Assembly: GCA_002049455.2 (NCBI GenBank)
Contig: KV919068.1
Location: forward strand, 28,938-92,937
DNA length: 64,000 nucleotides
Direction of reading: 5' to 3'
Origin: Porphyra umbilicalis
Taxonomy: Eukaryota > Rhodophyta > Bangiophyceae > Bangiales > Bangiaceae
Positions 18,434-46,189 of this stretch are shown here, in pieces. A model generated the notes under the pieces. That model had not been told where the DNA came from, did not search any database, and worked only from the letters and a program-made list of their open reading frames with translations. The stretch's first letter is position 1, and each line of letters begins with the position of its first letter. Both the position numbers and the translations under genes were made by a program.

Positions 18434-19569
18434 GGTCGCAAGAGGAGGGCTCGACGAGCGGCGAGTGGGGAGGCGAGTGGGGAGTCGAGTGGGGAGGCGA
18501 GCGGGGAGGCGAGTGGGGCGGCAAGTGGGGGGTCGAGTGGGGCGGCAAGTGGGGAGTCGAGCGGGGAGGCAGGGCCGCGATGGCTGCAGGCGGCAGCGGT
18601 TGGGGAGGGAGGCGCGACGCGGGCGACACTGCGGCGCGGCGCGGCGGTGGGGCCAAGCGCCGCAGCCGCCGTGATCCGCCGCCGGCCGCGGCGTGCTCGG
18701 CGAATGGGAAACGGCCGCCGGTGATCGGCGTGGGCAACTTGTGCGGTGAACTTGACCGCTTCTGCGACGCGCAAGTATCACTTGGCCCCGTGGCCGTCTC
18801 GTCTCGATTTCGGATTTCAAAGCCCGGCGCTCGCCCCGGATGAAAGGCGGGCCGGCGCGCCAAGGTGTCAGCGACGGGACTCAAGCGCCATACAGCCGTT
18901 GAGGCGCTACAGCGAGCGCCTTGTCAGCCTCTTCTTGGCCGACGCGCGCTGCAGTATCGCTCCACACACGTGTGTGCGAAGCGGGGCGAAACGGCACAAG
19001 CCTGGGGCCCACGCGGTCGGCAGCGAGGTAGGGTGCGCGGGACTACCCCATTGGTACACTGAGAAAGCCCCGGTCCTGGTGGGAGGGCTGAGGCGCCCCT
19101 TCACCGGTCACTGATGCGCTGGCATCTGGCACACGTGCGGCGGACCCCAGACCCCGTGCAAGAAGGCCAGGGTCGTGGAGATCGATCCCCCCCGGGCAGA
19201 TGTGGGCGGCTGCGCCCACCTCGTCGCTGCTGATTTACCGCGTGCGCGTACCTTGCTGTCACTCGGTCGGTGCGTTTTCTGCGAGACAGCCGGTATGCAC
19301 TCGCTCCAGGCGCGTTTCTCCTTTGGACCCCTGCCGACTGGTCCCCGCCGCCCACCTCGCACGTGGATCGTTCCGCGCAGCGGGACCCGTCTGCTGTGGC
19401 TGGCGCTCCAGTTGTGACGTGCCGTCCCGCCGACGCCTTGTTTCACGGGCTGCTGCGGAAGCGGCACTTGCGATTAGGCCCCGACGGACGCGCGCAGCCG
19501 GGGACGTGCCCGAGCGACACCGGCATTCGTCGCCGGCGACCGTGGGACCGGTGCTCCACGGCGGTCCCC
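18434..19569. other. Divergent upstream region of PurL and receptor-like gene A
   Basis: It begins with a 12-bp minisatellite next to the PurL start. From about 19111 to 19569 the sequence resembles the region upstream of the second paralogue (26270-26830), including CTGCTGTGGCTGGCG in both. The duplicated unit therefore includes upstream DNA and probably the promoter. The open frame running into this region is not needed for the protein. Confidence 0.5.
18446..18574. repeat. 12-bp minisatellite upstream of PurL
   Basis: About ten tandem units alternate GAGTGGGGAGGC and GAGTGGGGAGTC with small changes. On the minus strand it would read as Leu-Pro-Thr-Arg repeats ahead of the chosen start. 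It is most likely 5' UTR or promoter-proximal DNA. Confidence 0.8.
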
Positions 19570-21430
19570 ATGGCGGGGCGTGGCAGGCGTTTGCCAGCTG
19601 CTGTCGTCGTCGTCCCTACGGCGTGGTTGGCTGCCTCGGTGGTCGTCGTGGCGCTGGTTTTAATGCCGGCGACGGCCGCCATAGCCGGCAACCAATGCCT
19701 CGACCGCCTTGTGTCGCACCCCGCCGAGTTTGCCCGCTGCCGCATCGACACTACATGCTTCCTTTTTATCACGGAAGATCCGTTCGTCTTCATTGGCAAC
19801 ATTAGCAATGACCCCACCGATCCGCTCAACCCGCGGACGCCCTTCCCATGCACCGAGTTTGCCGTACGCGGTCTGAGCGGTTTCTCCTTTTCCTTTTACA
19901 AAAAGCTGTGGCCGTCGAGCCCCGATCTTTGCGTGTACGCTGGCGACGTTGACGAGTGTACGTTTAACGGCTTGGTCGACTTCCTCAGCGACACGCGCAC
20001 GCTGGGGCACCCTGGATACGGCATGGCGTTTGCCGTGGTGAACGCGCTCGTCTTTTCGCCCGTCCGCCGGCAGCTCGGTATCTCCTCCTCGTCGATCCTA
20101 GAAGACCGCCTGGTAATGGTGCGGCGAAAGCAATCGCACGCGGGTTTTTGGGCGCAGAGCAAGTTTGGGTTAACAACGCTATCGTGGCCGTTTACGGCGA
20201 GCACGTGGGCCGTCGTTCTGCACGCATTCATGGCGGCGCTGCTGTTTACAGCGGGGCTGTCAGTGTGGCGACCCACGCCTGTGTGGGCTGTGGAGGCTGA
20301 ACCTCATGGAGGCAGAGATGCCCTGCGTCGCGTGCGGTTGCTACAGTGGGCGTACAACTGGTAAGTGGGGCAACGCGGCTGTAGGGGGTGCTGCTTTGAC
20401 ATCCTGATTTGCAATGTGCTACGAGCTACGGCGAAGGATGCACTTTGTTCTTTTTTGCTCTGTTGCTGACAGACGCACGCTCGCGTGCGTCTCCCTTCTC
20501 CCACCGAATGTCTGGTGCTCCATTCTCTCGTCGCACAGGGTCCGAAACATTGCCGGCGGTGAGCTCGAGCTTGCAGAAGCGCACTTTGGGCCTTCGCAAA
20601 ACCTCGTCCGCTGCGTCCCTTATGCGATTATTGCGATAGTGGTGGTCTGGTGGGAGGCTGCGTTCATCATTGGCTCGACGAGCACCACACTCACCAAGCC
20701 GCTGAGCGGGCTCACCGATATCGACCTCTGTCCCTTCACAGTCACCCGCGACACGGCGATGGAGGTGATGTGGCTGTCCATTGTCAACAGCGGCCGCGAG
20801 AGCAACCCCATCAACATCTCGGGGCTGGCAACTGGCACCACCCACCGGACGTGGAGAACGTGTGACACTGCGACGAGTTGCTTCCAACAAGTCACCACCG
20901 GCGGTCGGTCGCCCTCCCCCCGCTGCGATAGCGCCGGCACGACCGACGTGTTCGTCACCTTCCAGCCCGTTCTCTATTCGCAAATGCGCCAGCACCCAGA
21001 GCTGTGTGACGCGCTGGAGGTGCTGGCCACGGAGGAGGAGGTGTTCCGCTTCACGCTTGGGTGGATGTACGCGGATGTGGTGACGCCCAACGCGACCGCC
21101 GCGGCAGCGTGGGCGTCACGGCGGGCGGATATCGACGTGGCCATCCGGCAGGCACGGCTCGACCAGACGACCAAGGACACCCTCGACAAGATGATTGGGA
21201 AGCAGGCGCCGTGCCCGCTCGAAATGCGGCGGGTGCAGCCGGGGCAGCTAATTCTTCCACTGGTGCTTACGCTGGCCGTCTTATATGTGTTCGCGCTGTT
21301 GTTGGCACTGGGTTACCCACCGCTGCAGACGGCCCTATCGAGGCAGAGGAGGCCGCTGGAAACCGAGGCGCTGGTGCATCCTAGAATGTCGCCTTGGCAC
21401 GAAGGACGGAGAGGGTGTAGTCGGTGGTGA
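19570..21430 (+). CDS. Ionotropic-glutamate-receptor-like membrane protein, copy A (one intron)
   Basis: Exons 19570-20360 and 20539-21430 give 560 aa; the intron at 20361-20538 has GTAAGT and CACAG ends and keeps the frame (Asn-Trp-Val-Arg). Visible parts are a signal peptide (about 1-40) and an extracellular Cys-containing region with SFYKKLWPSSPDLCVYAGD. A segment like the end of a type-3 solute-binding lobe follows (GYGMAF ... FSPVRRQLGISSSSILEDRL), then WPFTASTWAVVLHAFMAALL as TM1. Next come a helix ending WWEAAFIIGSTSTTL, placed like the pore-lining M3, a second outer lobe ending RADIDVAIRQARLDQTTK, and a last helix near the C-terminus. This order (signal, S1, TM1, pore, M3, S2, M4) is that of ionotropic glutamate receptors. 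Sequence identity is weak, there is no clear SYTANLAAF motif and no ligand Arg is proven. It could be another receptor type. Its paralogue lies 7.3 kb downstream on the same strand. Confidence 0.7.
20361..20538 (+). other. Intron of receptor-like gene A
   Basis: A 178-bp intron with donor GTAAGTGG and acceptor CGCACAG. It lies at the same codon position as the intron of copy B, which is 179 bp, although the intron sequences have diverged more than the exons. Confidence 0.85.
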
Positions 21431-25890: not shown

Positions 25891-26830
25891 GACATAGCTT
25901 TCCAGGCAGCGATCTTACATATGTCAGAGGGATAAGATATCTTACAGTATGATATAATATCCGAGATAACGTAAGAGCTGATGATAACAGCCCTAATGAC
26001 GGGCCCGCACCCGAGGTGTCAGAGTTGGTCTGTCTGTATTGCGGCGCCATGCAGCCGCGGAGCACTCTGGGGCGCATGTGGTTGTCAGCCACTCGTTGGC
26101 TGGCGCGCCATCGGTCCACACATGCGTGCGGATCAGCTCACTGTTTGGGCCGACTCCGTGGGCCCGACCGATATTGGGACCAACACGGCCACCCCATTGG
26201 TAGCTAACGAAACCACGGACGGCTGGCGTCTGGTCCAGCAGCGGCCGAGGGGCCCCCGCGACGAGGCGAAGATGCGCTGGCACTCGGGCGTCGGACCCCC
26301 CGTTTCGCACCAGGTCAAGGTGATGGCACGGATGTTCGAGGGCGATCCAGTCTGGCGGGCGGTTCTGTAGTGGTTGGGGAGTGCTGGGCCGACCTCATTG
26401 CCTCTGGCTCACCGTGTGCGCACCTCCCTGCCACTAGGTCGGTGCGTTGGATGTGAGTCAGCCGGCCCGGGGTTGCTTCGTGCAGGTACCCCACGACGGG
26501 TCGTGCTCTGGTCTCCTCTGCTCACGCTGGCGCAGTTGTGAATCGTTGATCCACTCTCACTTTAGTATCCGTGCCGACCGCACCGCCTCCACCACTCGTG
26601 GTCGCCGCCGCTCACCACCCACCTGGCATCGTCCGGCGCAGCGGAACTGTCTGCTGTGGCTGGCGCGCTGGATATGTCGCATCTTCCCACGGAAGCCTCG
26701 TTGCACCGGCTACTGTGGAAGCGGTACGTCTCGTTGGGCCCCGATGGGCAAGCGCGGCGGGCGACGTGCACGAGTGGCAGGAGCTGCCGTCGCCGGCGAC
26801 CGTGGGGTCCACACTCGACGCGGGCCCCCG
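25891..26830. other. Upstream region of receptor-like gene B
   Basis: The first part is AT-rich (25895-25990, TATCTTACAG, GATATAATATC). From about 26270 the sequence is related to the upstream region of copy A, including CACCTCCCTGCCACTAGG-like and CTGCTGTGGCTGGCGC segments. The promoter was therefore likely duplicated with the gene. No separate gene is seen. Confidence 0.45.
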
Positions 26831-28617
26831 ATGGCGGGGCGTGGTACGCGTTTGGTGGCTGCTGTCGCTACCGTCTCGATGGCGTGGGCGACTGTCGCGG
26901 CGGTCGTCTTGGTGCTTGCGCCAATGCCAGTGACGGCCGCCACGGCCGGCAAAAACTGCCTTCGCCGCCTGGTGTCACACCCCGCCGAGTTTGCCCGCTG
27001 CGGCATCGACACGACGTGCTTCCTGTTTATTGAGGAAGACCCATTCATCTTCATTGGCAACATCAGCAACGACCCGGTGGACCCGCTCAACCCGCGGACG
27101 CCCTTCCCGTGCACCGAATTTGCCGAGCGGGGTCTCAGCGGCTTCTCCTTCACCTTGTACAAGAAGCTGTGGCCGTCGAGCTCCGACTTGTGCGTGTACG
27201 CCGGCGACATTAACGATTGCACTTTCAACGGCATGATTGACTACCTCAACGACACGCGCGCGCCGGGGCACCCGGGGTACGGCATGGCGCTCGGCGTGAC
27301 GGGGGCACTCGTCTTTTCGCCCGTCCGCCGGCGGCTCGGCATTTCCTCCTCGTCCATCCTGGAAGACCGGCTGGTGATGGTGCGGCGGAAGCGCTCGCGG
27401 TCGGGCTTTTGGGCGCAGAGCAACTTTGAGTTGACGACGCTGTCGTGGCCATTTACGGCGGGCACGTGGGTCCTCATCTTACAAGCGTTCGTGGCGGCGC
27501 TGCTGGTTACGGCGGGGCTGTCGGCGTGGCGGCCGACGCCGTTGTGGGATGTGGGGGTTGAAGACGGCAGGGTTCGGTGGCGCCTGCGGTGGCTACAGTG
27601 GGCGTACAACTGGTATGTGCTGCGCGACGGCTGTAGGCGGTGCTGCTCTGTCACCCTGCTTTGCGGTGTGCTGCGAGCTACGGCGGCTAGTGCACTCTGT
27701 TGTGTATGTGCTTGATTGCTGACATGCGCACCGTCCCGCGTGTCACCCTCCTCCTGCCTCGTGTCTGTTTTTCTCTTTCCTCGCCGTACAGGGTCCGGAA
27801 CCTCGCCGGCGGGGACCTCGAGCCGGCAGAAGCGCACTTTGAGCCTGCTCGAAATCTCGTGCGCAGCGTCCCCTATGCGGTCATTGCCATAGTTGTCGTC
27901 TGGTGGGAGGCTGCGTTCATCATCGGCTCGACGAGCACCACACTCATCAAGCCGCTGAGCGGGCTCACGGACGCCGAGCTTTGCTCCTTCACGGTCCCCC
28001 ACAGCACGGCGCTGGAGGAGACGTGGCTGTCCATTGTCAACAGCGGCCGCGAGAGCAACCCCATCAACATCTCGGGGTTGGCGACTGGCACCACCCACCG
28101 GACGTGGAACACGTGTGACTCGGCGGCGAGTTGCTTCCAACAAGTCACCACCGGCGGCCGGTCGCCCTCCCCTCGCTGCGACAGCACCCGCACGACCGAC
28201 GTGCTCGTCACCTTCCAGCCCGTTCTCTATTCGCAAATGCGCCAGCACCCGGAGCTGTGTGACGCGCTGGAGGTGCTGGCCACGGAGGAGGAGGTGTTTC
28301 GCTTCACGCTTGGGTGGATGTACGCGGATGTGGTGACGCCCAACGCGACCGCCGCGGCAGCGTGGGCGTCACGGCGGGAGGATATTGACGTGGCCATCCG
28401 GCAGGCGCGGCTCGACCAGACGACCAGCGACGTGCTCGACACGACGATTGGGAAGCAGGTGCCGTGCCCGCTCAACCAGCAGCGGGTGCAGCCGGGGCAG
28501 CTGATGCTGCCGCTGGTCCTTGCGTTGGTGGTCTACTACGTGTTGGCGGTGATGTTGGCCCTGGGCTACCCGCTGCTGCAGGGGGCCCTGAGGGCAGAGA
28601 AGAGGCGGCAGGTGTGA
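26831..28617 (+). CDS. Ionotropic-glutamate-receptor-like membrane protein, copy B (one intron)
   Basis: Exons 26831-27612 and 27792-28617 give 535 aa; the intron at 27613-27791 has GTATGT and TACAG ends. It aligns with copy A along its whole length: signal peptide, TLYKKLWPSSSDLCVYAGD, GYGMALGVTGALVFSPVRRR, TM1 WPFTAGTWVLILQAFVAALL, M3-like WWEAAFIIGSTSTTLIKPLS, second outer lobe with LYSQMRQHPELCDALEVLAT (identical in both) and a C-terminal helix. Differences cluster in the signal peptide, the juxtamembrane tail after TM1 and the extreme C-terminus, where copy A carries a 25-residue extension. The intact frames and conserved Cys suggest both are functional. Ligand and ion selectivity cannot be read from the sequence. 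Confidence 0.72.
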
Positions 28618-29489
28618 GGGCCATGGGCGCCCCCTCGCGGGTCACCTTTGTGCGGAGCGAGGGTGTGCTCAGTTTTGATGAGAGTGGGGGTGGCGGAGGG
28701 GCGCTGCCGATCCGGGTGGGGGCGGTTCAAAGGATGGCCTATGGATGATTGTGACGGATGCAGTAGTACTGGATGTTGTGGGCACGCAACCGCAGTTGAC
28801 GCACAGGAGAAGCCGGAAGATGTCGTTCAGTGGAACAGCGTGGAGAAGCAAGATTGTGGTTGGGAAGGTGGTGGAGAATGTCGGGACGGGACGCCGGCTC
28901 CACGTCCAGCCACCGGTCTCCATCAAGCGAGCAGGCTTGCTCTTGCTAGAAACGGTCTGGTTGGCCAAATTAAATAAAGGGCGCAGCGCGCCATAAACAC
29001 CCTCAGTGCGAGCGCTCTGACAAGAAGAAACCGCGACAGGCCCCAGACACGACGCCACCCACACAGATGGGGCTCACTCGCGCCGCCCCCCCCACACCCT
29101 TGGCACGCCTTCCCCCCACCCCCGACCCCGCCCAACCGCATCGCAGGAACGGCGGCGGCGGCGGCGGCAGCGGCAGCGACGGCAGCGGCGGCGGCGGCGG
29201 GCGCGGCGGCGGCGGCGGCAGCAGCGGCAGCAAAGTGGCGGCCTCAGCCATGGCCCGCCGCTCCACCGCGCCGCCGCAGCGGTGTGGCGCCACCGTCGGC
29301 GTCGCGGTGCCCCAGCCCGCCGTGTACGCGCGCCGCTGCCGGCACATGCGCCGCTGCCGTCGCCGCCGCCGCCGCCGCCATCGTCGCTGCCGCCACCCCC
29401 CCCCCCCCCCCCCTCACGCGGTCCTTGGCGACGGCGGCGGCCCCATGACCAGGACCGCGGGCGCCCGTGCAAGGCACGGCCGCTCGCCG

Positions 29490-35908: not shown

Positions 35909-38000
35909 CAAACAGAGGCGGCGGGTGAGTGACGGCGCGGCGCGGCGGGGGGACGAACAGGCAGCGTGGAAGACGAGTGGTGGCACGACCGCCGCAAGGG
36001 ACGTCATCCACGTCCGCCCGAGACGGGGATGGTCCACCGCGCAGCGCCCGGTGAACACCCAGCCGCACCCAACGTGGGGTGGTGGGAGCTGCGCCCGCAC
36101 CGGCATAAGGCGCAGCCCGCCCGCATCACGCCGTGTGACCGTGCCGGCCGCGGACGCGGAGTTGCCGAAAAAGTCAGTTGAAAAACAAGCAGATGGATGC
36201 CCCCCACCCTCCCCCCGCCTCCGCTGCTTGTCACACCGCCACGCAGTCCCCCATCATGATGACGACGCAGCGAGCAGCGGGGAGGAACAACGGGGGCCGA
36301 CCAGGGATCTTGGGAGAGGAGATGGATGGCCGCCGGGGCACTGCCGGCCGCCACCCACGCCCGAACACCGCGGTGGGGCTGGCCTGGACAAAGGCGCGGG
36401 GTGGCGGCGGGGCCGCCACGTGGAGCGTTGCCGGTGACCGCGTGACCGACGGTTGGTCTCACAGCCGCCGCAGATTTCTCACGCCATGAAGCGCGAGGTT
36501 GTATTTCAAAAAAAACGCACCCCGTCGATTCGACGTGTAGGTGGGCTACAATCGACGGGGGGGGGGGTCTCAGGGGGCGTGTGGGGGGGGGGGGGGGGGC
36601 GTGCGTGGGGTTTGGGGGGGGTGGGGCTGCTGGGGGCGCCTGGGGGGGGCTGGGGGGGGCTCGGCGGGGGGGTGCGGGGGGGGGCCTGGGGGGGGGGGCT
36701 CTGGGGGGGGGTGCTCTGGGGGGGGCCCTGGTGGGGGGTGCCGTCGGGGCACATTGCGACGAGAAAATTATATCGATTGTGGACTCTGGCGTGCTTGAAT
36801 TTACGACAATGATGCGTGCCCAGGTAACATTTTTGGATATCTCTTGAGGTGACGTAACGGTGGCTGTTTGATGGATGTGAGCGTCACAAGACAGAGTAAG
36901 ACAGCTGGCCCCAGCATGTTCTGACGGGTCACAAACACGGCGCGTGGCGGCGAGGCTGGCCGGCAGCTGCCTGCAGGCGCCGCGCCATCTTGGGTCGGCA
37001 GACAGTATGTTCTGGGTAGGATGGGGTAGGACCAAGGCCGTCAACTCGTAATGTATCCAGGTGACTGGGGGCAGACGCATCAAGACGTCGCGGAGGCAGT
37101 GGGAAGGTGTTGGGCGTGGCGTGGGGATGGGCGCTGCAGGGTGGTAGGTGTCTTGGGGGGGCTGATTCTCAGCGTTGTGTCGTGGGTGTTGCGAAGGCGT
37201 ACACGCCATATGGGGGTCAGTGCTGAGTGGGGAAGAGAACGGCGGCCACTTTCTAAGAGTAGGTGACAGTGATTGCGTAGGCTCAATAGAAGTGGCATGG
37301 GGATTGGGCCCGTGAAAGAGGTGTCGCCGTGGGTGGTGAAGGAGGTGGGGTATGGGGTGGGGGGGGAGGATTTGTACTGAGGTGCAGGTCGAGCATGGTA
37401 CTGGGTGGGGGGGCAGCGCGGTTTGGGTAGGGTGCGAGGTGGAAAACTGGGTGGGGGTGGACGGGATACTGACTGGGCGTGTTACTAGCGACCGGGGCGT
37501 GGTAGCCGAGCGGGCGCGGGGGGTGAAGGTGGCATGTGCTCAAGAATAGCAGATTACACGCTACATCCTGACCACTGCATTCGGTAGATCGCTGACACTG
37601 CTTAGTCCAGTGGATCACACGTCTTTGTGATGACACTGCACAATCCAGTGGAATCCTTGATTGCGCTTCCCTACCTGCCTACAGCGGCTCTCATTGTTTT
37701 TTCAAAGAAAAAACACCATCGCACATCACTCGTGATGTTGTGTGTGCTTCCTGCCCAGCTTCGAAAAGAAAAGGTGCTGTCGGGTACACTTGCTTCACGC
37801 GTTCCTTCACACGTGCAGTCTTGCCCACGTCTGAGATGTGTCGAGCATTTCTGGGCCAAACATGAGTAAAACACAACTTTCTTGGAGAGGATCATTGTTG
37901 GATCACTGAAGGGCGCTGATCACGGCCATGTCGGTCTTTTTCTGCAAAAATGCTTCTTTCATACCGTTTCTGCACTCCAAAGAAACAACAGTCACCAGGC
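35909..38000. other. Intergenic with a G-rich tract
   Basis: 35909-36500 is the upstream flank of the subtilase-like gene, GC-rich and without a motif. At 36519-36561 the sequence GCACCCCGTCGATT and its partner ATCGACGGGG flank a 20-bp loop, then 36551-36745 is nearly pure G on the plus strand with scattered C and T. From 36760 to 38000 the DNA is of ordinary composition with no convincing gene. Confidence 0.45.
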
Positions 38001-39975
38001 GGCGGCGGCGGCATGCAGGCACGGCGGCGGCAGGGGGCGGCGGCGGTGGCGGCTAGGGGATGCGGCCGTGGCAGACAGGGGCGGGGGTGGCAGCAGGCGA
38101 CGGCGGCGGCCGCGGCGGGCGGCCGCGGCGGCATCAAAGGGCGGCCGTGGCAGGGGGCGGCGGCGGCGGCCGCCGGGGGCGGCGTCAACGGCGGCCGGGG
38201 GTGCCAGCGGCGGCGCCCGGTACCAGCTACGGCAGCGGGCGGTGGTAGTGGCGGCAGTAGCCGGGGGCACCGGGCGCACCGGGCGCCGGCGACGGCATGC
38301 AGGGGCGGTGGCGACCGGGGGCGGCGACGGCCGCCGCCGCGGCCGGCGGCTGGGGGCGGCGGCGGCAGCCGCCACGGGCGGCGGCGGCGGCCGCTGGGGG
38401 CGGCGGCGGCAGCCGCCACGGGCAGCGGCGGCGGCCGCTGGGGGCGGCGGCGGCATCCGCCAGGGGCGGCGGCGGCGACGGGTGGTGGCGGCGACGGCAG
38501 GGGGTGGCGGCGGTGGCGGCAGCAGCCGGGGGCGGCGGCGGCAGCGGCCGGGGACGGCGGTAGCAGCAGCCGAGGGTGGCGGCGGCAGCGACCGGGGGCG
38601 GCAGCAGCCGCCGGGAGCGGCGGCAGTGGCCGGGGGCGGCGGCGGCAGCCGCCGGGGGCGGCGGCGGCGGCAGCCGGTGACGGTGAAGGCAGTGGGCGGC
38701 GGCATTGAAGGCAGCGGCTGGGGGCGGCGGCGGCCGGGGGCGGCGGAGGCGGCATGCAGGGGCGGCGGCGGCCTGGGGCAGCCGCGGAGGTGGATGGGGG
38801 CTGCGGCGGTGGCAGTCAAGGGCGGCGGCTGCAGAGGGCGGCGTCGGACACCCCCGAGGCCGGCGGTGGCGACAGCCCGGGGCGGCTACGGGAGCGGCCG
38901 GGAGCGGCGGCGCCGGCGGCCGGTGGCGGCGGCGACGGCGGCCAGGGGCGGCGGCGGCGGCGGCCGGGGGCTGCGGCGGCGGCGGCCTGTGGCGGCGACG
39001 GCAGGGGGCGGCCGCGATGGTGGCAGCGGCCGTGGCGGCGGCAGCGGCCGGGGGCTGCGGTAGCAGCCGCCGGGAGCGGGGCCGGCGGCGGCCGGGGGGC
39101 GGCGGCCGTAGCGGCTGGGGGCGGCGGTGGCGGCGGCCGGCAGTGGCGGCAGCCGGGTGCGGCGACGGTGGCGGTATGGGGCAGCGGCGGCTGCTGCCAG
39201 GGGCGGCGGCGGAGACAGCTGGGAGCGGCGGCGGCGGCGGCCAGGGGCGGGGGCGGCGGCAGGCAGGGGCGGCGGCGGAAGGGGGCGGCGGTGGCGCCGG
39301 TGGCAGCACGAGGTGGCGGCTGCTCCAGGAAGGGGCGGCTGCGGGCGGGGGCGGCGGCTGAGATAGCTGGGAGCGGCGGCTGCGGCGGCCAGGGGCGGAG
39401 GCGACGGCAGGCAGGGGCGGCGGCGGCAGCGGCCGGTGGCGACGGCGGCGGCGACTCGGGGTGGCGGCGGCGGCGGCGGCCGGGGGCGGCGGCGGCGGCA
39501 CCCCGGGGCGGCGGCGGCGCCAGGCCGGGGCTTCGGAGGTCGGGGGCAGCGGCGGCGGTGGCCGGGGGCGGTGGTGGCGGCGGTGTCAGCCGGGGAGGGC
39601 GGCGGGGGCAGACAGGTGGCGGCGGCGGCGGCGCCCAGGCGCGGCGTCGGCCGGGGGCGGCAGCCCGCGGCGGCAGCAGCTGGGGGCGGCGGTGGCCAGG
39701 GGCGGTGGCGAGGGAAGCCAGAGCGGGCGGCGGCGGCACCCGGCGGTGCCGAGAACCGGGGGGCGGCGGCGGCTGGGGGCGGCGGCGGTGGCAGCCGGGG
39801 CGGCGGCGGCGCCAGGAGTGGCCGCGCCGCGGGGGCGGCGGCAGCCAGGGGAACTGGCAGCGGGGGACGGCGGCAGAGGGGGACGGCGGCAACCGCTGCG
39901 GGGGGGGCAGCGAGGTGCAGCGGGAGCCGCCGCGGGGGCGGCGGCAGCCATACATGCGCCGCGGGTAGCGCCCAT
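38000..39975. repeat. 2-kb (GGC)-rich satellite
   Basis: Nearly 2 kb consists of GGCGGC, GGGGGCGGC, GGCAGCCG and GGCGGCCG words in irregular tandem order on the plus strand (for example GGCGGCGGCGGCAGCCGCC). All six frames stay open and would code Ala/Gly/Arg or Pro/Ala/Arg polymers. Without motif or unit regularity it is better called a degenerate trinucleotide satellite than a gene. The G-strand should readily form G-quadruplexes. Confidence 0.75.
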
Positions 39976-40694
39976 ACAGCGGGGGCGGCAGGCATGACGC
40001 TCGGCTCGTGGGACCGCGACGGGGAAATGTGATTCCAGCACTGTGAATGATGTGATGATGCCCAGCTCGCGGGAACGTTGTAACGATCTGTTCTCCAGCC
40101 TCTCGTTGCCATTCCCCTGTGCTGGACTTTCCGTCCGGCAGTGCATTTGAATCCCGACCGCATTCCATCCGGGGCGGGCCGACCGCTGCTGTAAGGGACC
40201 CCCTCCGGTCGCGCGTACTGAGGCGACTTGATTGTGATTTGCTTTGAACTACAGTGCTCTGAGGAGCTGCAAACGGCCCACACGACGATTTTTCCTTACA
40301 CAATCGACGGGGTGCCCTTCTGGATGAGATACTACATGTGAAGCGCGGCCACAGGAATGCATGCAAGGCGCGCGAAAGTCCGTGCAAAGGCGTCGTCGAA
40401 TTTGGTGCCGGTGACCTGCCCGGCAGGTCGGCTCGGTCTCGGTCTCCGCCTCTGCGCCGCCCCCGACTCCGCCCCAGTCTCTTTGCAACTGGCAGCGCTC
40501 CCCGCCCCCCCACGGTCTCGCCACCGTCATTGACGCCCCCATCCTCCCCGTCACGTCCCCCGCCACTTCCCCCCCCCCATCGACGCATGACTGGGGAGGC
40601 CACCTGGCTCCTCTCTGCCGCGCAGCGCACCCCCCTTTGGTCCGCCGGTGGCCGGCCGCCCCCCCCTCGCGTGGGTGCTCCCCCCCCCTCCACC
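39976..40694. other. Upstream region of the glutaredoxin gene
   Basis: Ordinary composition up to about 40330, then C-rich towards the start codon. AATCGACGGGGTGC at 40301-40314 is the exact inverted copy of GCACCCCGTCGATT at 36520-36533. An open frame from 40338 continues into the glutaredoxin frame but is Pro/Ser-rich and is probably 5' UTR. Confidence 0.4.
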
Positions 40695-41477
40695 ATGGAC
40701 CTCCCCGCGCCCGCGAGTTCCCGCCGCCCCACCGCCCTCCGCAAGCCGTCACCACTGCCCCTCCTCCTCATCGTCGTGACCGTTGCGCTGGTCGTGGCGG
40801 GCTACCACCACCTCTCCACCCGCGTCGCGTTGCGCGCAGTGGCGGTGCCGACCGCGGCGGGCGCCCCCGACGGCAGCGGCGAAGGCGCCCCCCCGGCGCC
40901 CCCCGTGTCGGCCGAGCTAGTCGCCGCCGTCGCGGGCGCCGCCTCGGAGGCGGTTGTCGACCCGGCCGCCGCCGGCGGTCCACCCGACCAAATCGGGTCG
41001 GCGCCGCCGGCGGCGGCGCCCATTGCCCCCGCCGGCGCCATTGCGGCGGTCACGGCGGCGGGGGGTGGGGCCGCCCCCCCCTCTGGCGACGCGGCGGCGG
41101 CGGTCGCGGCGGCGGCAGCCATCCCCCCCCCCGGCGGGGACCCCGCCGCGATCGTGCGGTCGCTCGTCGCGTCCCACCCCGTGCTCATCTTTTCCAAGAG
41201 CTACTGCCCCTACTCGGCGCGGGCCAAGGCGGCGCTCGCAGAGGCGGCGGCGCCGGGTGCGCCGCCGGCGACGGTGGTGGAGCTCGACCTGAGGGAGGAT
41301 GGGGCCGCGTTGCAGGCGGCGCTGGAGGCGGCAACGGGGCGCTCGACGGTGCCGAATGTGTTTGTGGGTGGGCACCCGGTGGGGGGGAGTGACGAGGTTG
41401 CCGCCCTGGCGGCCGAGGGGAAGCTGGAGGGGCTGCTCCGCGAGGCGCCGGCGCAGTTGGTGGCCAAGATTGCGTAG
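40695..41477 (+). CDS. Membrane-anchored CPYS glutaredoxin
   Basis: A thiol-disulfide oxidoreductase of 260 aa from the ATG at 40695 (CCACCATGG). A short basic N-terminus is followed by one membrane helix, PLLLIVVTVALVVAGY (about 20-36). An Ala/Pro/Gly linker of about 110 residues comes next, then a C-terminal glutaredoxin domain (about 150-260): VLIFSKSYCPYSARAK with the dithiol site Cys171-Pro-Tyr-Ser, the cis-Pro motif STVPNVFVGG (about 217-226) and the glutathione-binding GGSDEV. The second active-site position is Ser, so the protein is monothiol-like at the second residue, as in several CPYS plant glutaredoxins. The layout resembles the Golgi/ER-anchored yeast Grx6/Grx7. An open frame upstream to 40338 lacks support. 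Location in the secretory pathway is inferred from the uncleaved helix. Confidence 0.9.
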   Translation: MDLPAPASSRRPTALRKPSPLPLLLIVVTVALVVAGYHHLSTRVALRAVAVPTAAGAPDGSGEGAPPAPPVSAELVAAVAGAASEAVVDPAAAGGPPDQIGSAPPAAAPIAPAGAIAAVTAAGGGAAPPSGDAAAAVAAAAAIPPPGGDPAAIVRSLVASHPVLIFSKSYCPYSARAKAALAEAAAPGAPPATVVELDLREDGAALQAALEAATGRSTVPNVFVGGHPVGGSDEVAALAAEGKLEGLLREAPAQLVAKIA

Positions 41478-42184: not shown

Positions 42185-44915
42185 ATGGCCTTTACCGTTG
42201 CGTTTTACCCGGGCACACCCCTGGTCGTAAGCGGCCGCCGTGTTGCGGCGCTCCCGGGGGGGCGGCGGGCACCCCCCCCCCCGCGGCCGCAGCCGCGGCC
42301 GCCGCCGGCCGTCGGCGGCGGCGGCGGCCGCTCCCCCCCGCATGGCCGCCGGGTCGGGTGATGGCAGCCCCGACGGTGACGAGACGGACGCGAGCGGCGC
42401 GCGCAAGCCCCGCGGCGACCCCGAGTGGCTCGACATGGCCAAGGCCGTCGGCGGCGACGGCGGGCGCAAGCGCTCCTTTTGGCCCTTTGGCCGCAAAGCC
42501 GACGGCGGGGGCGAGGAGGCGGACGACGCGCGGCCGGCGCCCCAGTGGAAAGTCCCCGACGGCTATGGGGAGGAGTCCATCGGCGGCGGGGGCGCCCCCG
42601 GCGAGGCGTCTGCGTGGCAAACCTGGTCGGGCGCCCTCGATCGCGAGGCGACGGCGCCGCCGCCGCCGCCGCGGGACGGCAAGGCTGAAGTCGACTTTTG
42701 GCGGTCGTCGGCCAAGGAGGTAGCCCCGCCCGCCGAGGGGGGTGACGCCGGCGCCGGCGAGGCGCGCGCGGCCGCGCCGTCGGCCGCGGCCGCCGACGAG
42801 GCGCCGCCGCCGCCGCCGCGGCGCGGGGGCGTCGCAGACGCGACCCCGCCCGATGACCCGTCGGCGCTGTGGGGCATGGCGCGGGCGGTGACGGGGGAGG
42901 TGGCGGAGCTGCAGGAGCGCCTGCAAGAGGAGGTGACGGGGTACGACCTCGGCACCAACACGGGCGCGTATCGGGATTTTGCGCGGGGCGTCTTTGAAGC
43001 CAACCGGGGGGAGGGGGGGTGGGCGGCGCCGCCGTCGGCGCCCGACGCGGGGGGGGGGAGGGGGGGGGGGGGGGGGGCACCGAGCGACGGCAGTGGGGCG
43101 GGCGCCGCCGCCGCCGCCGCCGCCGCTGCCGGTGCGTATGCGGATGTGACCTACACCGACGACGACGGGCGGGTGTTGACCGCCGCCGAGGTGGAGGAGG
43201 CCATGTCGTCTGGCGCCATCTTTGTCGACGATGATGGGAATGAGGTGGCGGCGGAGGAGCTCTTTGGCGGCGCCCCACCGGGGGGCGGTGGTGGCGGCGG
43301 CGGCGGCGGCGATGGGGCCTTTCGGGGTGGCTGGCAGCCGCCGCCCCCGTCGGGCGGCGGCGGGCCGCCGGCCACGCCAGCCGCGTTTGAGGCGTCGGGC
43401 CTCCCCCCCCCCGCCCCCCCCAGCCTCCCCCAGCGGCCGCCCTCCACCTCCACGTATGGGGGCAACTGGGATGGGGCGGACCAAGCGCTCCGCGAGCTCC
43501 AAGCCGAGGGCGTGCCGCTTCGCGACCCGGCGTCGGAGACGGCCTTTTGGCGGTCGGCCGTGGCCGACATTCAACTGCCCGAGGCGGTGTCGCCGCCGCC
43601 CGCCGACGCGGGCGCGGGCGCCGCCGTCGGGGCGGCCGCGGCGGCCGCGTCGACGCCCACGGGCGTGCCCGGCTGGACCGACTTTGCCGCGTCCTTTGAC
43701 GCCGGGTCCGACCCCCCGCCGGCGCCCTCGTCGACGGTCGAGGACGTTTCGGCCGGGCGGATGGAGATGCTCGAAGCCGCCGCGCGCGCGCGCGGGGGGG
43801 GGGTGCCGCCGCCGCCGCGCCGGACAATGGGTCTGCGGGCGCCGCCGCCGCCAATGGGGCCGACGGGGGCGTGCCGACGTTTGAGGTGCGCCTCGACGAC
43901 GAGGAGTTTTCGGCGCTCCTGGGGGGGTTGGACCTCGACGAGCTCGACGGCGGCGACGGCGGCGACGGCGACGCTGCCGCCGCCGCCCCCGCCGCCGCTG
44001 CCACGGACGGCGCGGCGGCGGGTGCGCCGGGCGTCCCCGCCGCCGCCGTGGACGAGCCGCCGACCGCCCCCGCGTCGCCGTTGCCGCCCGCCGAGGCGGT
44101 GGCCCCCCCGCCCCCCACCGGGGAGGACGTGACGTCGGCGTGGAGCTCCTGGTCGGCGGCGGCCTCCAAGTGGGAGCAGGCGGTCGGGTCGGCGCCCGGT
44201 CGCGACCCAAAGCAGGAGGTCGACCAGTGGCGGTCGGCGGCACGGGACTTGAGCGGCGGCAGCGGCGGCGGCGGCGCCACCGACGCGGGCGCGCCCGCCG
44301 GGGCAGCGTCGGGGGAGGATGCCCCGTGGGGCTCCTCGACATCCTTTGGCGGCGGCGGCGTGGCGTCGGATTGGGGCGTCGGCCTCGACTCGGAGGCCAC
44401 GTCGGAGCGCGCGCGGTGGGGCGCCTGGGGCGCCTCCTCCCCGCTCAGCGACGCGGGCACGTCGGGCCTCGGCGGCACCTGGCGGCGGCCGGGGGAGGTG
44501 AGTGGCCGCCGGCCAGACGCGGCGGCGGCGGGCGCCGCGCCGCGCGCCGCAGACGCGCCGAGCTCCGCGGCCACGTGGATGGACGCCGCCCGCGACTTGA
44601 CGCGTGGGGGGGAGGGGGGGGCGGGGGGGGGCCGCGGACGGCGGCGGCGGCGACCCGTCGGTGGCGGGCGCAGAGGGGAGCGTCGGCGCACCGACGGGCG
44701 CGCCCGGCGGCGGCTTTGTGTTTGACCCGTCGGCGGTGGCGGGGCGCGCCGACAAGGGCGCCGACATTGACCTGTGGCGGGTGGCCGCCCAGGATGTGGC
44801 CGTGCCGCCGGCGGAGGAGGGGGAAGAGGGGGGGGGGGGGGGGGGGGACCCGGCGGGGGGGGTGAGCGGCCTGCGTGAGCGCCGGGGGGGGGGGGGGGGG
44901 CGGTGGGCGTGGTAG
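42185..44915 (+). CDS. Large disordered protein with repeated W-R-x-x-A helical motifs, probably plastid-targeted
   Basis: The chain runs across several frames and totals roughly 900 aa. It begins MAFTVAFYPGTPLVVSGRRV at 42185, transit-peptide-like, shifts near the C-runs at 42271-42282 and 42332-42338, then is open from 42342 to about 43800. It shifts at the 10-G run 43794-43803, runs to about 44605, shifts again in G-runs and ends RWAW-stop at 44915. Long Gly/Pro/Ala/Asp linkers separate short helices. Helix cores (Trp codon) are EWLDMAKAV (42426), DFWRSSAKEV (42699), ALWGMARAV (42870), AFWRSAVADI (43548), QWRSAARDL (44228), TWMDAARDL (44576) and DLWRVAAQDV (44775), consensus W-R-x-x-A-[RK]-[DE]-[VL]. 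More Trp motifs lie at 43467, 43674, 44141, 44150 and 44171. A folded-looking segment TYTDDDGRVLTAAEVEEAMS lies at about 43152-43205. No family is recognised; a multivalent scaffold is the reading I favour. Confidence 0.75.
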
Positions 44916-46189
44916 GGGCGACGGCGGGCGCCTCTGCGGCGCCCGCAGCGTGGGCGGTGGCGGGCGGCGCCGTTTTGGGGTGTGCTGCGTGGGGGCGCAT
45001 CCCCTTTTTTTTTCAGTTTTCTTCCTTGAGGGACTCGCGCCGCGGGCGGGGAGGTTGGCGCGCCGTTGCGTGGGCGTCACAGGGCGGCGCGATGGGGTGG
45101 AGGTGCAACGGATCGAGGCGACGCGGGGCGGTCGGGGTGGGTCCCCCACGACCGTCTGTCGGGGCGCCACCTGTGGAAAGTCGTCAGACCAGCTCAACGG
45201 ACAACGGCGGCCACCTCGGCCTCCCCGCACTGGCCCCCCCCTCCCCACGGTGACCGACGCACCGCTCTGCCACGCTGATCCCGCAGGACGGATGAACTGC
45301 GGTGCCGTCGCGTGGCCAACGACCCCCCTCCCATTTGTGGTCACCACTCTGCCTTCTTTGTGGGTGTCTCTACTCGACCTTTCCGCCACCGCTCTCCCCC
45401 CGCCCTCGCCGTCCCTCCCGTGCCACCTCGACCGCCGCGGCGAGTGCCCCCTCCCGCTCCCCGCTCGACCACTGCCCTCTTCCTCTTCTCCTTGTCTGCG
45501 GACCGCCACGGACGCCCCACGCGGCCGTCGTCGACGCAAAAGCCCCAGGCAGCAAAAAAACCATCGATTAAAAAAAAAACCAATATATGATATGTGAATA
45601 TATAGATTAATCGATCCCAGATTTCATGAATATAGAGATTAATCGATCCCATATGTAGAAAACCCCAGAAAGTTTCAATCCCTGACAACAACCCCGCATC
45701 ACACTATGTATACACCGTCCAATACATGGCGCCAGGTTCCAAGTCGTGTATTCCGATACACCCAACTACAGCGGAACGGCCCCGCACAAGGTGGTACCCG
45801 AAAAAGGTCCGGCGGACCTTCTTCGAGTGTCCCTCGTTTAAGTAGCCTCGCGTGAAAATCTGGCGTACTCCGTTCGTAGGGGTCGTGAGAGCCGATCCAA
45901 CATGAAACTGCCCAGTTGTAGGCGGTTTTAAATTCGATTGGGAATGATCTAGAGGTGCTACCTTCATAGCATCTGCTGGGACAAGTGCGTGGTTGTACGG
46001 TATTTATCATGATCTTCCCGTAACCCCATCTTGTGCAATCGACTGTAACACGACCTTCAACCCGAGCCCCGTCAAGACTTGGCGTCAGGCTGCATCGTTG
46101 TGCCACCGCTGCTGCCCTCAACGCCTGGCTTGTTCTCCCTCTTCTCGTGGCGTCTACCTGTCGAGCCCGCCAGCCTTTCGCCGCGGACA
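44916..46189. other. Intergenic; 3' flank of the repeat-protein gene and promoter of the cyclo-ligase
   Basis: GC-rich up to about 45550, then AT-rich with a tandem repeat at 45595-45657, then ordinary DNA to the cyclo-ligase start. A minus-strand open frame at 45699-46208 shows no known motif. Confidence 0.4.
45595..45657 (+). repeat. Two AT-rich direct repeats
   Basis: Two copies of TGAATATAGAGATTAATCGA-like sequence (45596-45618 and 45628-45651), each followed by TCCCA and separated by 9 bp. They stand out as AT-rich DNA in a GC-rich setting and may be remains of an element end. Confidence 0.7.

Follow-up and report, generated by a model that had tools for sequence, protein, structure and literature searches.

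A repeated tryptophan motif in a candidate plastid scaffold protein of the red alga Porphyra umbilicalis

We analyzed a window of 64,000 nucleotides from the red alga Porphyra umbilicalis (positions 28,938 to 92,937 of contig KV919068.1, assembly GCA_002049455.2) and describe a gene on its forward strand at 42185–44915 (coordinates are those of the window). The gene carries a tryptophan-centred repeat, has a codon signal in three frames and opens with a transit-like N-terminus that resembles those of plastid genes. We read it as a nuclear gene for a plastid-imported, mostly disordered, acidic and multivalent scaffold, and give this reading a probability of about one half. The product is an orphan protein with repeats, probably located in the plastid, and it makes a fair scaffold candidate.

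Results

The tryptophan repeat

The repeat at 42185–44915 is real. Four copies of the strict motif WR[SV][SA][AV]x[DE][VIL] lie at 42699 (WRSSAKEV), 43548 (WRSAVADI), 44228 (WRSAARDL) and 44775 (WRVAAQDV), and a looser fifth copy at 44576 (WMDAARDL) has Met in place of Arg. The strict motif, which was picked post hoc, occurred on average 0.0002 times in 5000 shuffles against the four copies observed, and no shuffle contained four. At the DNA level, the extended pattern [DE]-[FLIMV]-[DE]-x-W-R-x-x-A-x-[DE]-[FLIMV], with Arg as CGN, has three matches on both strands of the assembly (83.8 Mb, 665 contigs), all three of them in this gene, and none in a reversed-genome control. The initial annotation had proposed at least seven W-R helices and listed seven Trp codons, which are spread over two reading frames. 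Five of the seven sites fit W...[AV].[DE][VIL], four of them with Arg, and the four octamers that it had spelled out are the strict copies given above. The remaining two sites do not fit: the Trp at 42426 begins WLDMAKAV, in which position 7 is not acidic, and the Trp at 42870 begins WGMARAVT, which is out of register. The copies lie within the following stretches.

42606–42722, + strand: repeat unit A, SAWQTWSGALDREATAPPPPPRDGKAEVDFWRSSAKEV; matched by unit C as query (E 0.0036); A–C score 90, reached by 0 of 2000 shuffles
43458–43595, + strand: repeat unit B, NWDGADQALRELQAEGVPLRDPASETAFWRSAVADI; score 62 against A and 55 against C, each reached by 0 of 2000 shuffles
44120–44260, + strand: repeat unit C, GEDVTSAWSSWSAAASKWEQAVGSAPGRDPKQEVDQWRSAARDLSGG; predicted helical hairpin
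44763–44797, + strand: repeat copy D, DIDLWRVAAQDV; the third genome-wide match to the extended pattern
44558–44602, + strand: weaker copy E, SSAATWMDAARDLT; loose motif, weak predicted helix

Units A and C are alike over about 40 residues (SAWxxWSxA...RDxKxEVDxWRSxA), and upstream of the WR helix they still score 48, a value reached in 1 of 2000 shuffles. The likeness of unit B to A and C lies mainly in the WR helix; the score of its upstream part was reached by 117 (against A) and 209 (against C) of 2000 shuffles. Copy D compared with A gave a score that none of 2000 shuffles reached. In a genome-wide search with the 47-residue unit C as query (E up to 10), the matches listed were the unit itself and unit A, without copies B and D. 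A unit B query matched one other place, on contig C218 (E 0.07), which we rejected as chance: the frame is RING/zinc-finger-like by eye and has no WR helix.

A more general test, of Trp-centred pairs of any kind, was marginal because Trp and Ala are very common in the protein: ten pairs were found against a shuffle mean of 2.57 and a maximum of 9 in 500 shuffles, and the best single pair score (47) lies within the shuffle range (maximum 51). As background, none of 18 other coding-like open reading frames, taken from the window and five 10-kb stretches, has a Trp-centred pair scoring at least 28. Third codon positions are in none of the six strict-copy pairs more alike than first or second positions, which argues against a recent tandem duplication. 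As initially annotated, the spacing is irregular: the four strict copies are 283, 223 and 172 residues apart (runs between segments excluded), and counting the weak copy E gives C-terminal spacings of 116 and 56 residues. Four of the five motif helices exceed their own shuffle average in amphipathicity.

Gene structure and frame changes

Coding signal runs along the + strand through three segments, P1 to P3, that together encode about 860 residues in a high-GC red algal nuclear genome, and a gene at this place is very probably real. Its product is rich in Ala, Gly and Pro, contains 2.9% Trp and is acidic, as had been claimed (isoelectric point (pI) 4.19, net charge −65). The frames were assigned by a Viterbi path that is blind to the motif, at switching penalties of 4, 6, 8, 12 and 20; the underlying codon model had been trained on portions of seven Pfam-matched genes in the window. 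Support for each segment is given below as log-likelihood (LL) per codon.

42185–42283, + strand: start codon and transit-peptide-like N-terminus (MAFTVAFYPGTPLVVSGRRVAALPGGRRAPPP); M-[AG]-F-x-x-x-F start like that of four plastid genes
42229–42282, + strand: first change of frame, from 2 to 0, position approximate; Viterbi switch at 42229, penalties 6–20
42285–43796, + strand: coding segment P1, 504 codons, frame 0; LL per codon 0.27, best of the other five frames −0.03
43794–43803, + strand: second change of frame, from 0 to 2, at a G10 run; Viterbi switch at 43804 with all five penalties
43808–44602, + strand: coding segment P2, 265 codons, frame 2; LL per codon 0.26, best other frame 0.10
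44606–44631, + strand: third change of frame, from 2 to 0, within G7/G8/G9 runs; Viterbi switch at 44631 with all five penalties
44634–44915, + strand: coding segment P3, 93 codons, frame 0, ending with TAG at 44913–44915; LL per codon 0.30, best other frame −0.09
About 44884 to 45016/45025, + strand: uncertain candidate C-terminal extension in frame 2 (VGVVGATAGASAAPAAWAVAGGAVLGCAAWGRI), following a G17 run; LL per codon 0.24, other forward frames −0.27 and −0.21

Switches at 42229, 43804, 44631 and 44878 appeared at penalties 6, 8, 12 and 20, and the penalty of 4 gave extra switches. Those at 43804 and 44631 coincide with the ends of G runs. From the first switch it is 27 bases onward to a G7 run (42256–42262) and 43 to a C11 run (42272–42282), and from the fourth, at 44878, it is 6 bases onward to the G17 run. 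Homopolymer assembly error is the simplest reason for the frame changes. A switch near such a run is nevertheless little proof of error, because the gene contains 17 G or C runs of at least seven. Nor are long runs always mis-assembled: within the domain match of the window's MFS gene, the frame passes unbroken through a C20 run, and real breaks are thus possible. The joins between frames are supported because the three copies of the extended motif occur in two assembly frames.

We rejected an intron as the cause of the first frame change: a canonical donor is present at 42227 (GTAAGC), but a scan of 42240–42480 for canonical introns gave no suitable acceptor. The AG sites there that would restore frame 0 (42384, 42408, 42426, 42444 and 42471) are without a pyrimidine tract, and the well-formed acceptor at 42293 leads into frame 2 and then to a stop. 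Further GT[AG]AG donors within 42185–45100 are found only at 44498, 44862 and 44875. A T9-CAG near 45005–45013 resembles a splice acceptor, and a possible intron with its donor at 44862 or 44875 and this CAG as acceptor would alter the C-terminus. The candidate extension would be a moderately hydrophobic Ala/Val/Gly stretch, with a maximum of only 1.39 over 19-residue Kyte–Doolittle windows (KD19), and is possibly a C-terminal anchor.

A plastid-type N-terminus

The gene starts MAFTVAF. The translation in the frame of its start codon, MAFTVAFYPGTPLVVSGRRVAALPGGRR, contains several Arg but lacks acidic residues. Two phycobilisome-linker genes of the genome (L014 and L015) and a light-harvesting Lhc gene (L006) start MAFVSTF, and a further Lhc gene (L002) starts MMGFVSSF, their first exons being assigned by eye. 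Starts of this MAFVSTF/MGFVSSF type were seen at two of eight Lhc loci and two of four nuclear phycobilisome-linker loci, which are the loci where a first exon was identified. Two of three PRK-domain places were read: the PRK gene at L047 starts MVSAFVSAA, with F at position 5, a pattern different from M-[AG]-F-x-x-x-F, and the PRK-domain place L049 is not plastid-targeted in appearance. A similar start is absent from seven other genes of the window (PurL, DEAH helicase, MFS, ZIP, VPS28, FTHF ligase and glutaredoxin), whose starts were guessed by eye; the methyltransferase of the window was omitted because no start was visible. A Phe motif in plastid precursors of Porphyra yezoensis is described in PMC2222254. 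The likeness to the two phycobilisome-linker and two Lhc starts supports the plastid targeting proposed in the initial annotation, and we judge import into the plastid to be likely.

The genome contains ten Lhc matches and 12 phycobilisome-linker matches, 4 of the 12 on contig C665. On C665 there are also rbcL, rbcS and a CbbX-like frame, and we take this contig to be the plastid genome. A six-frame genome search for PsbO (PF01716) gave no match, although Lhc genes and phycobilisome linkers were found; PsbO is either absent from the assembly or split by introns.

Predicted structure

Structures were predicted with AlphaFold2 from single sequences without an alignment, and confidence (predicted local distance difference test, pLDDT) is reported for blocks of ten residues. 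Mean pLDDT is 49.3 for a model of 483 residues and 53.6 for one of 244, with 315 and 132 residues, respectively, below 50; together with the composition, these values bear out the disorder that had been annotated. In unit C, two helices are predicted, GEDVTSAWSSWSAAASKWEQAVGS (84–107) and PKQEVDQWRSAARDLSG (113–129), with Trp on both, and the blocks score 88, 87, 83 and 83 for residues 81–120 and 71 for 121–130. Unit C is thus predicted to be a two-helix hairpin. Unit B is modeled with two helices (374–388 and 396–410, blocks 49–71) and copy E with a helix at 234–241 (block pLDDT 46–48). The repeated helices of the initial annotation are therefore recovered for B and C and weakly for E, and not for unit A, which is modeled as coil. 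Two further segments stand out in the models.

42858–43010, + strand: predicted helix pair (LWGMARAVTGEVAELQERLQEEV / GAYRDFARGVFEANRG), which includes the out-of-register Trp 42870; model residues 173–223, blocks 76, 80, 75, 55 and 65
43146–43268, + strand: DDDG twin segment (ADVTYTDDDGRVL...AIFVDDDGNEV), predicted strand-helix-strand; blocks 81, 77 and 72 (residues 271–300) and 59 (301–310)

The DDDG twin reads VTYTDDDGRVL...AIFVDDDGNEV, and confidence in the predicted strand-helix-strand is moderate. Its best Pfam match has E 0.0086 and 16.3 bits, under the cut-off of 27, and its matches in the PDB are weak (best E 0.06).

Searches for relatives

Pfam and NCBIfam returned no family for the segments at E up to 1, and the weak Pfam matches of short segments were every one under cut-off. 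The P1-like stretch 42231–43805 gave 82 pattern stretches in prokaryote genome contigs and P2 gave 600 in viral contigs, none of which was confirmed. Fold searches against the PDB gave 12 matches at E up to 10 and none at 0.001 for the P1 model and no match for the P2 model; they carry little weight because the models are mostly of low confidence. Up to E 1 for P1 and P2, and up to E 10 for P3 and three short segments, the PDB matches include no phycobilisome chain, the presence of CaRSP chains in the PDB set being unchecked. The one light-harvesting chain matched by P3, iFCPI-5, is at chance level (E 0.35).

Genomic surroundings

The GC content of the window is 70.4%, which fits Bangiales, for whose named genomes PMC7423979 gives 64–68% against 37–57% in other red algae. 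The gene upstream (40338–41477, + strand) encodes a glutaredoxin domain (PF00462, E 6.7e-13) after a hydrophobic stretch that, by eye, is possibly membrane-spanning. Upstream of this glutaredoxin gene lies a 1.8-kb GGC-rich minisatellite (37998–39811; period 22, about 71 copies at 38140–39696), and the interval 38001–40000 has a GC content of 85.7% and a GC skew of 0.32. Very similar frames occur on both strands at 19234–21427 and 26438–28614 (RPRCRGGRVGRHHIRVHPPKREA...; VRNIAGGELELAEAHF... / VRNLAGGDLEPAEAHF...); the two places are probably copies of one repeated element, and four + frames tested there have no Pfam match.

Discussion

If the protein is a scaffold, its chain would lie in the stroma or at the thylakoid surface and present at least four Trp-centred modules. 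The Trp helices may serve for docking or for self-association, and the long stretches of Ala, Gly, Pro and Asp between them may be flexible acidic spacers. One chain could then gather a number of molecules of a single abundant plastid partner, or further copies of itself, into a loose network. Candidate partners are Rubisco and phycobilisome or thylakoid components. The odds of this scaffold reading overlap with those of a Rubisco linker and of a phycobilisome scaffold, both weighed below, because these two are special cases of it.

Several observations weigh against a scaffold. Reading the gene from start to stop requires three frame changes, perhaps four, and the gene is broken if they exist in the genome itself. 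Our prokaryote, viral, PDB, Pfam and NCBIfam searches turned up no relative. The longer unit of about 40 residues is present in just two of the four strict copies, and the likeness of copy D to B and to C is weak, 10 and 5 of 2000 shuffles, respectively, reaching the scores. A coil is predicted for unit A, one motif helix (SETAFWRSAVADI) is not amphipathic (0.25 against 0.27 in shuffles), and in a hairpin the Trp may be buried rather than exposed as a sticker. A relaxed form of the pattern has 24 matches in the genome, 3 here and 21 elsewhere, and 12 in the reversed control. At the 21 other places, some of which are identical or near-identical copies, we read about 75 residues around each match and then scanned the whole frames, 4 of which reach the locus edge; one frame (L037, 887 codons) contains a second loose motif. 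We rejected the idea that the motif is shared with other proteins, as it is among Chlamydomonas pyrenoid proteins.

A first alternative is that the Trp helices are self-folding hairpins with a structural or homotypic role only, the protein being an assembly factor, a filler or a regulator and no client-binding scaffold. Unit C, with its two predicted helices and Trp on both, would suit such a role, as would unit B at lower confidence. Yet unit A is predicted to be coil, the WR helix of B follows a first half that is not clearly like that of A and C, and no first half was found for D and E. We consider this alternative unlikely.

A second alternative is a Rubisco linker, or a tether between Rubisco and the matrix, of a red algal pyrenoid. 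In Chlamydomonas, the linker EPYC1 is a disordered chloroplast protein with short repeated helices around W-[RK]-x-x. The initial annotation had likened the present protein to it, and the likeness, drawn from described features and not from alignment, holds for the disorder, the plastid-type start and the repeated short Trp helices. It does not extend to the chain, which is acidic, to the spacing, which is irregular, or to the helix, which in two copies is part of a longer two-part unit and not a lone element. PYCO1 of diatoms, as described in PMC10288592, is positively charged like EPYC1 (pI 10.03) and has six repeats of about 80 residues with KWSPR/Q and GTGYNP. It resembles our protein in its Trp stickers and its form ID Rubisco host, and its weak large-subunit-binding helix AAEWGSMNQ, in which the Trp likewise follows an acidic residue and precedes a Ser two positions on, is loosely like the motif here. 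Neither KWSP nor GTGYNP occurs in P1–P3, and the pI of 4.19 is far from that of PYCO1; the pI of RbcL in this alga is acidic too (5.80). CsLinker of Chlorella, which PMC11570498 reports was identified by architecture and not by homology, shares disorder and repeated short helices (of about 10 residues), but its contact is dominated by a Phe. The FLIPPer spacing rule with which it was identified asks for 20–120 residues; the strict copies here, 172–283 apart, fall outside it, and the spacings of 116 and 56 obtained by counting the weak copy E fall within it.

Measured against this class of linkers, the present chain is largely disordered with repeated structured elements (from composition, repeats and low AlphaFold confidence) and, by N-terminal similarity to four genes only, plastid-targeted; it is not basic, as EPYC1 and PYCO1 are. 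The missing basic charge lowers the case that it is a Rubisco linker, and less so the case that it works like one. Besides the general likeness to known linkers, it favors Rubisco that the cleft of the large subunit that receives the PYCO1 Trp helix is largely kept in the RbcL of this alga (by eye, Y89, D92, F102, L361 and F366 are identical, F104 is replaced by Tyr, and diatom F482 probably matches F480), but this tells little because RbcL is generally conserved. Pyrenoids are part of the general picture of Bangiales. PMC11740840, where the word 'pyrenoid' occurs only in the reference list, does not confirm this. We regard a Rubisco linker as rather improbable.

Third, the protein could be a phycobilisome- or thylakoid-associated scaffold with a job like that of the CaRSPs. 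These are nuclear-encoded red algal phycobilisome scaffolds in which, according to PMC7994580, repeated CALM domains hold several phycoerythrin beta subunits, CALM being a three-part motif around a beta-ribbon core. Our protein is likewise red algal, nuclear-encoded and a single chain with several short modules, it is Trp-rich and contains one predicted strand-helix-strand segment, and the genome has 12 phycobilisome-linker matches, 4 of them on C665. The repeat is, however, predicted to be helical where the core of CALM is a beta-ribbon, and no phycobilisome chain appeared among the PDB matches. This role, too, seems quite improbable.

The least probable alternative is a decaying gene or misread GC-rich DNA, with real frame breaks and no intact protein, which would fit three frame changes within 2.7 kb, many open frames on both strands, the intact frame over the C20 run of the MFS gene and the poor value of 17 runs as landmarks, but is very unlikely because coding signal and motif continue on either side of the breaks and two switches (43804 and 44631) fall exactly at G-run ends.

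We thus retain a plastid-imported scaffold as our reading. In its boldest form, the protein would be a linker that condenses Rubisco in a primary red plastid by means of Trp hairpins, of two helices each, carried on an acidic chain. Such stickers would differ in type from those of EPYC1, PYCO1 and CsLinker, and a pyrenoid matrix would have arisen independently once more; we see only a small chance of this. No Rubisco linker is named for a primary-plastid red alga in the relevant passages of the reviews PMC10473226 and PMC13159521 or in the open-licence literature searched. Once cDNA has settled the frame, a candidate whose Trp residues can be tested by point mutation would make the assembly of red algal Rubisco, or of another red plastid complex, directly testable. 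If the protein proves to be another kind of scaffold, it would add a helical, Trp-based module to the known scaffolds of red algal plastids.

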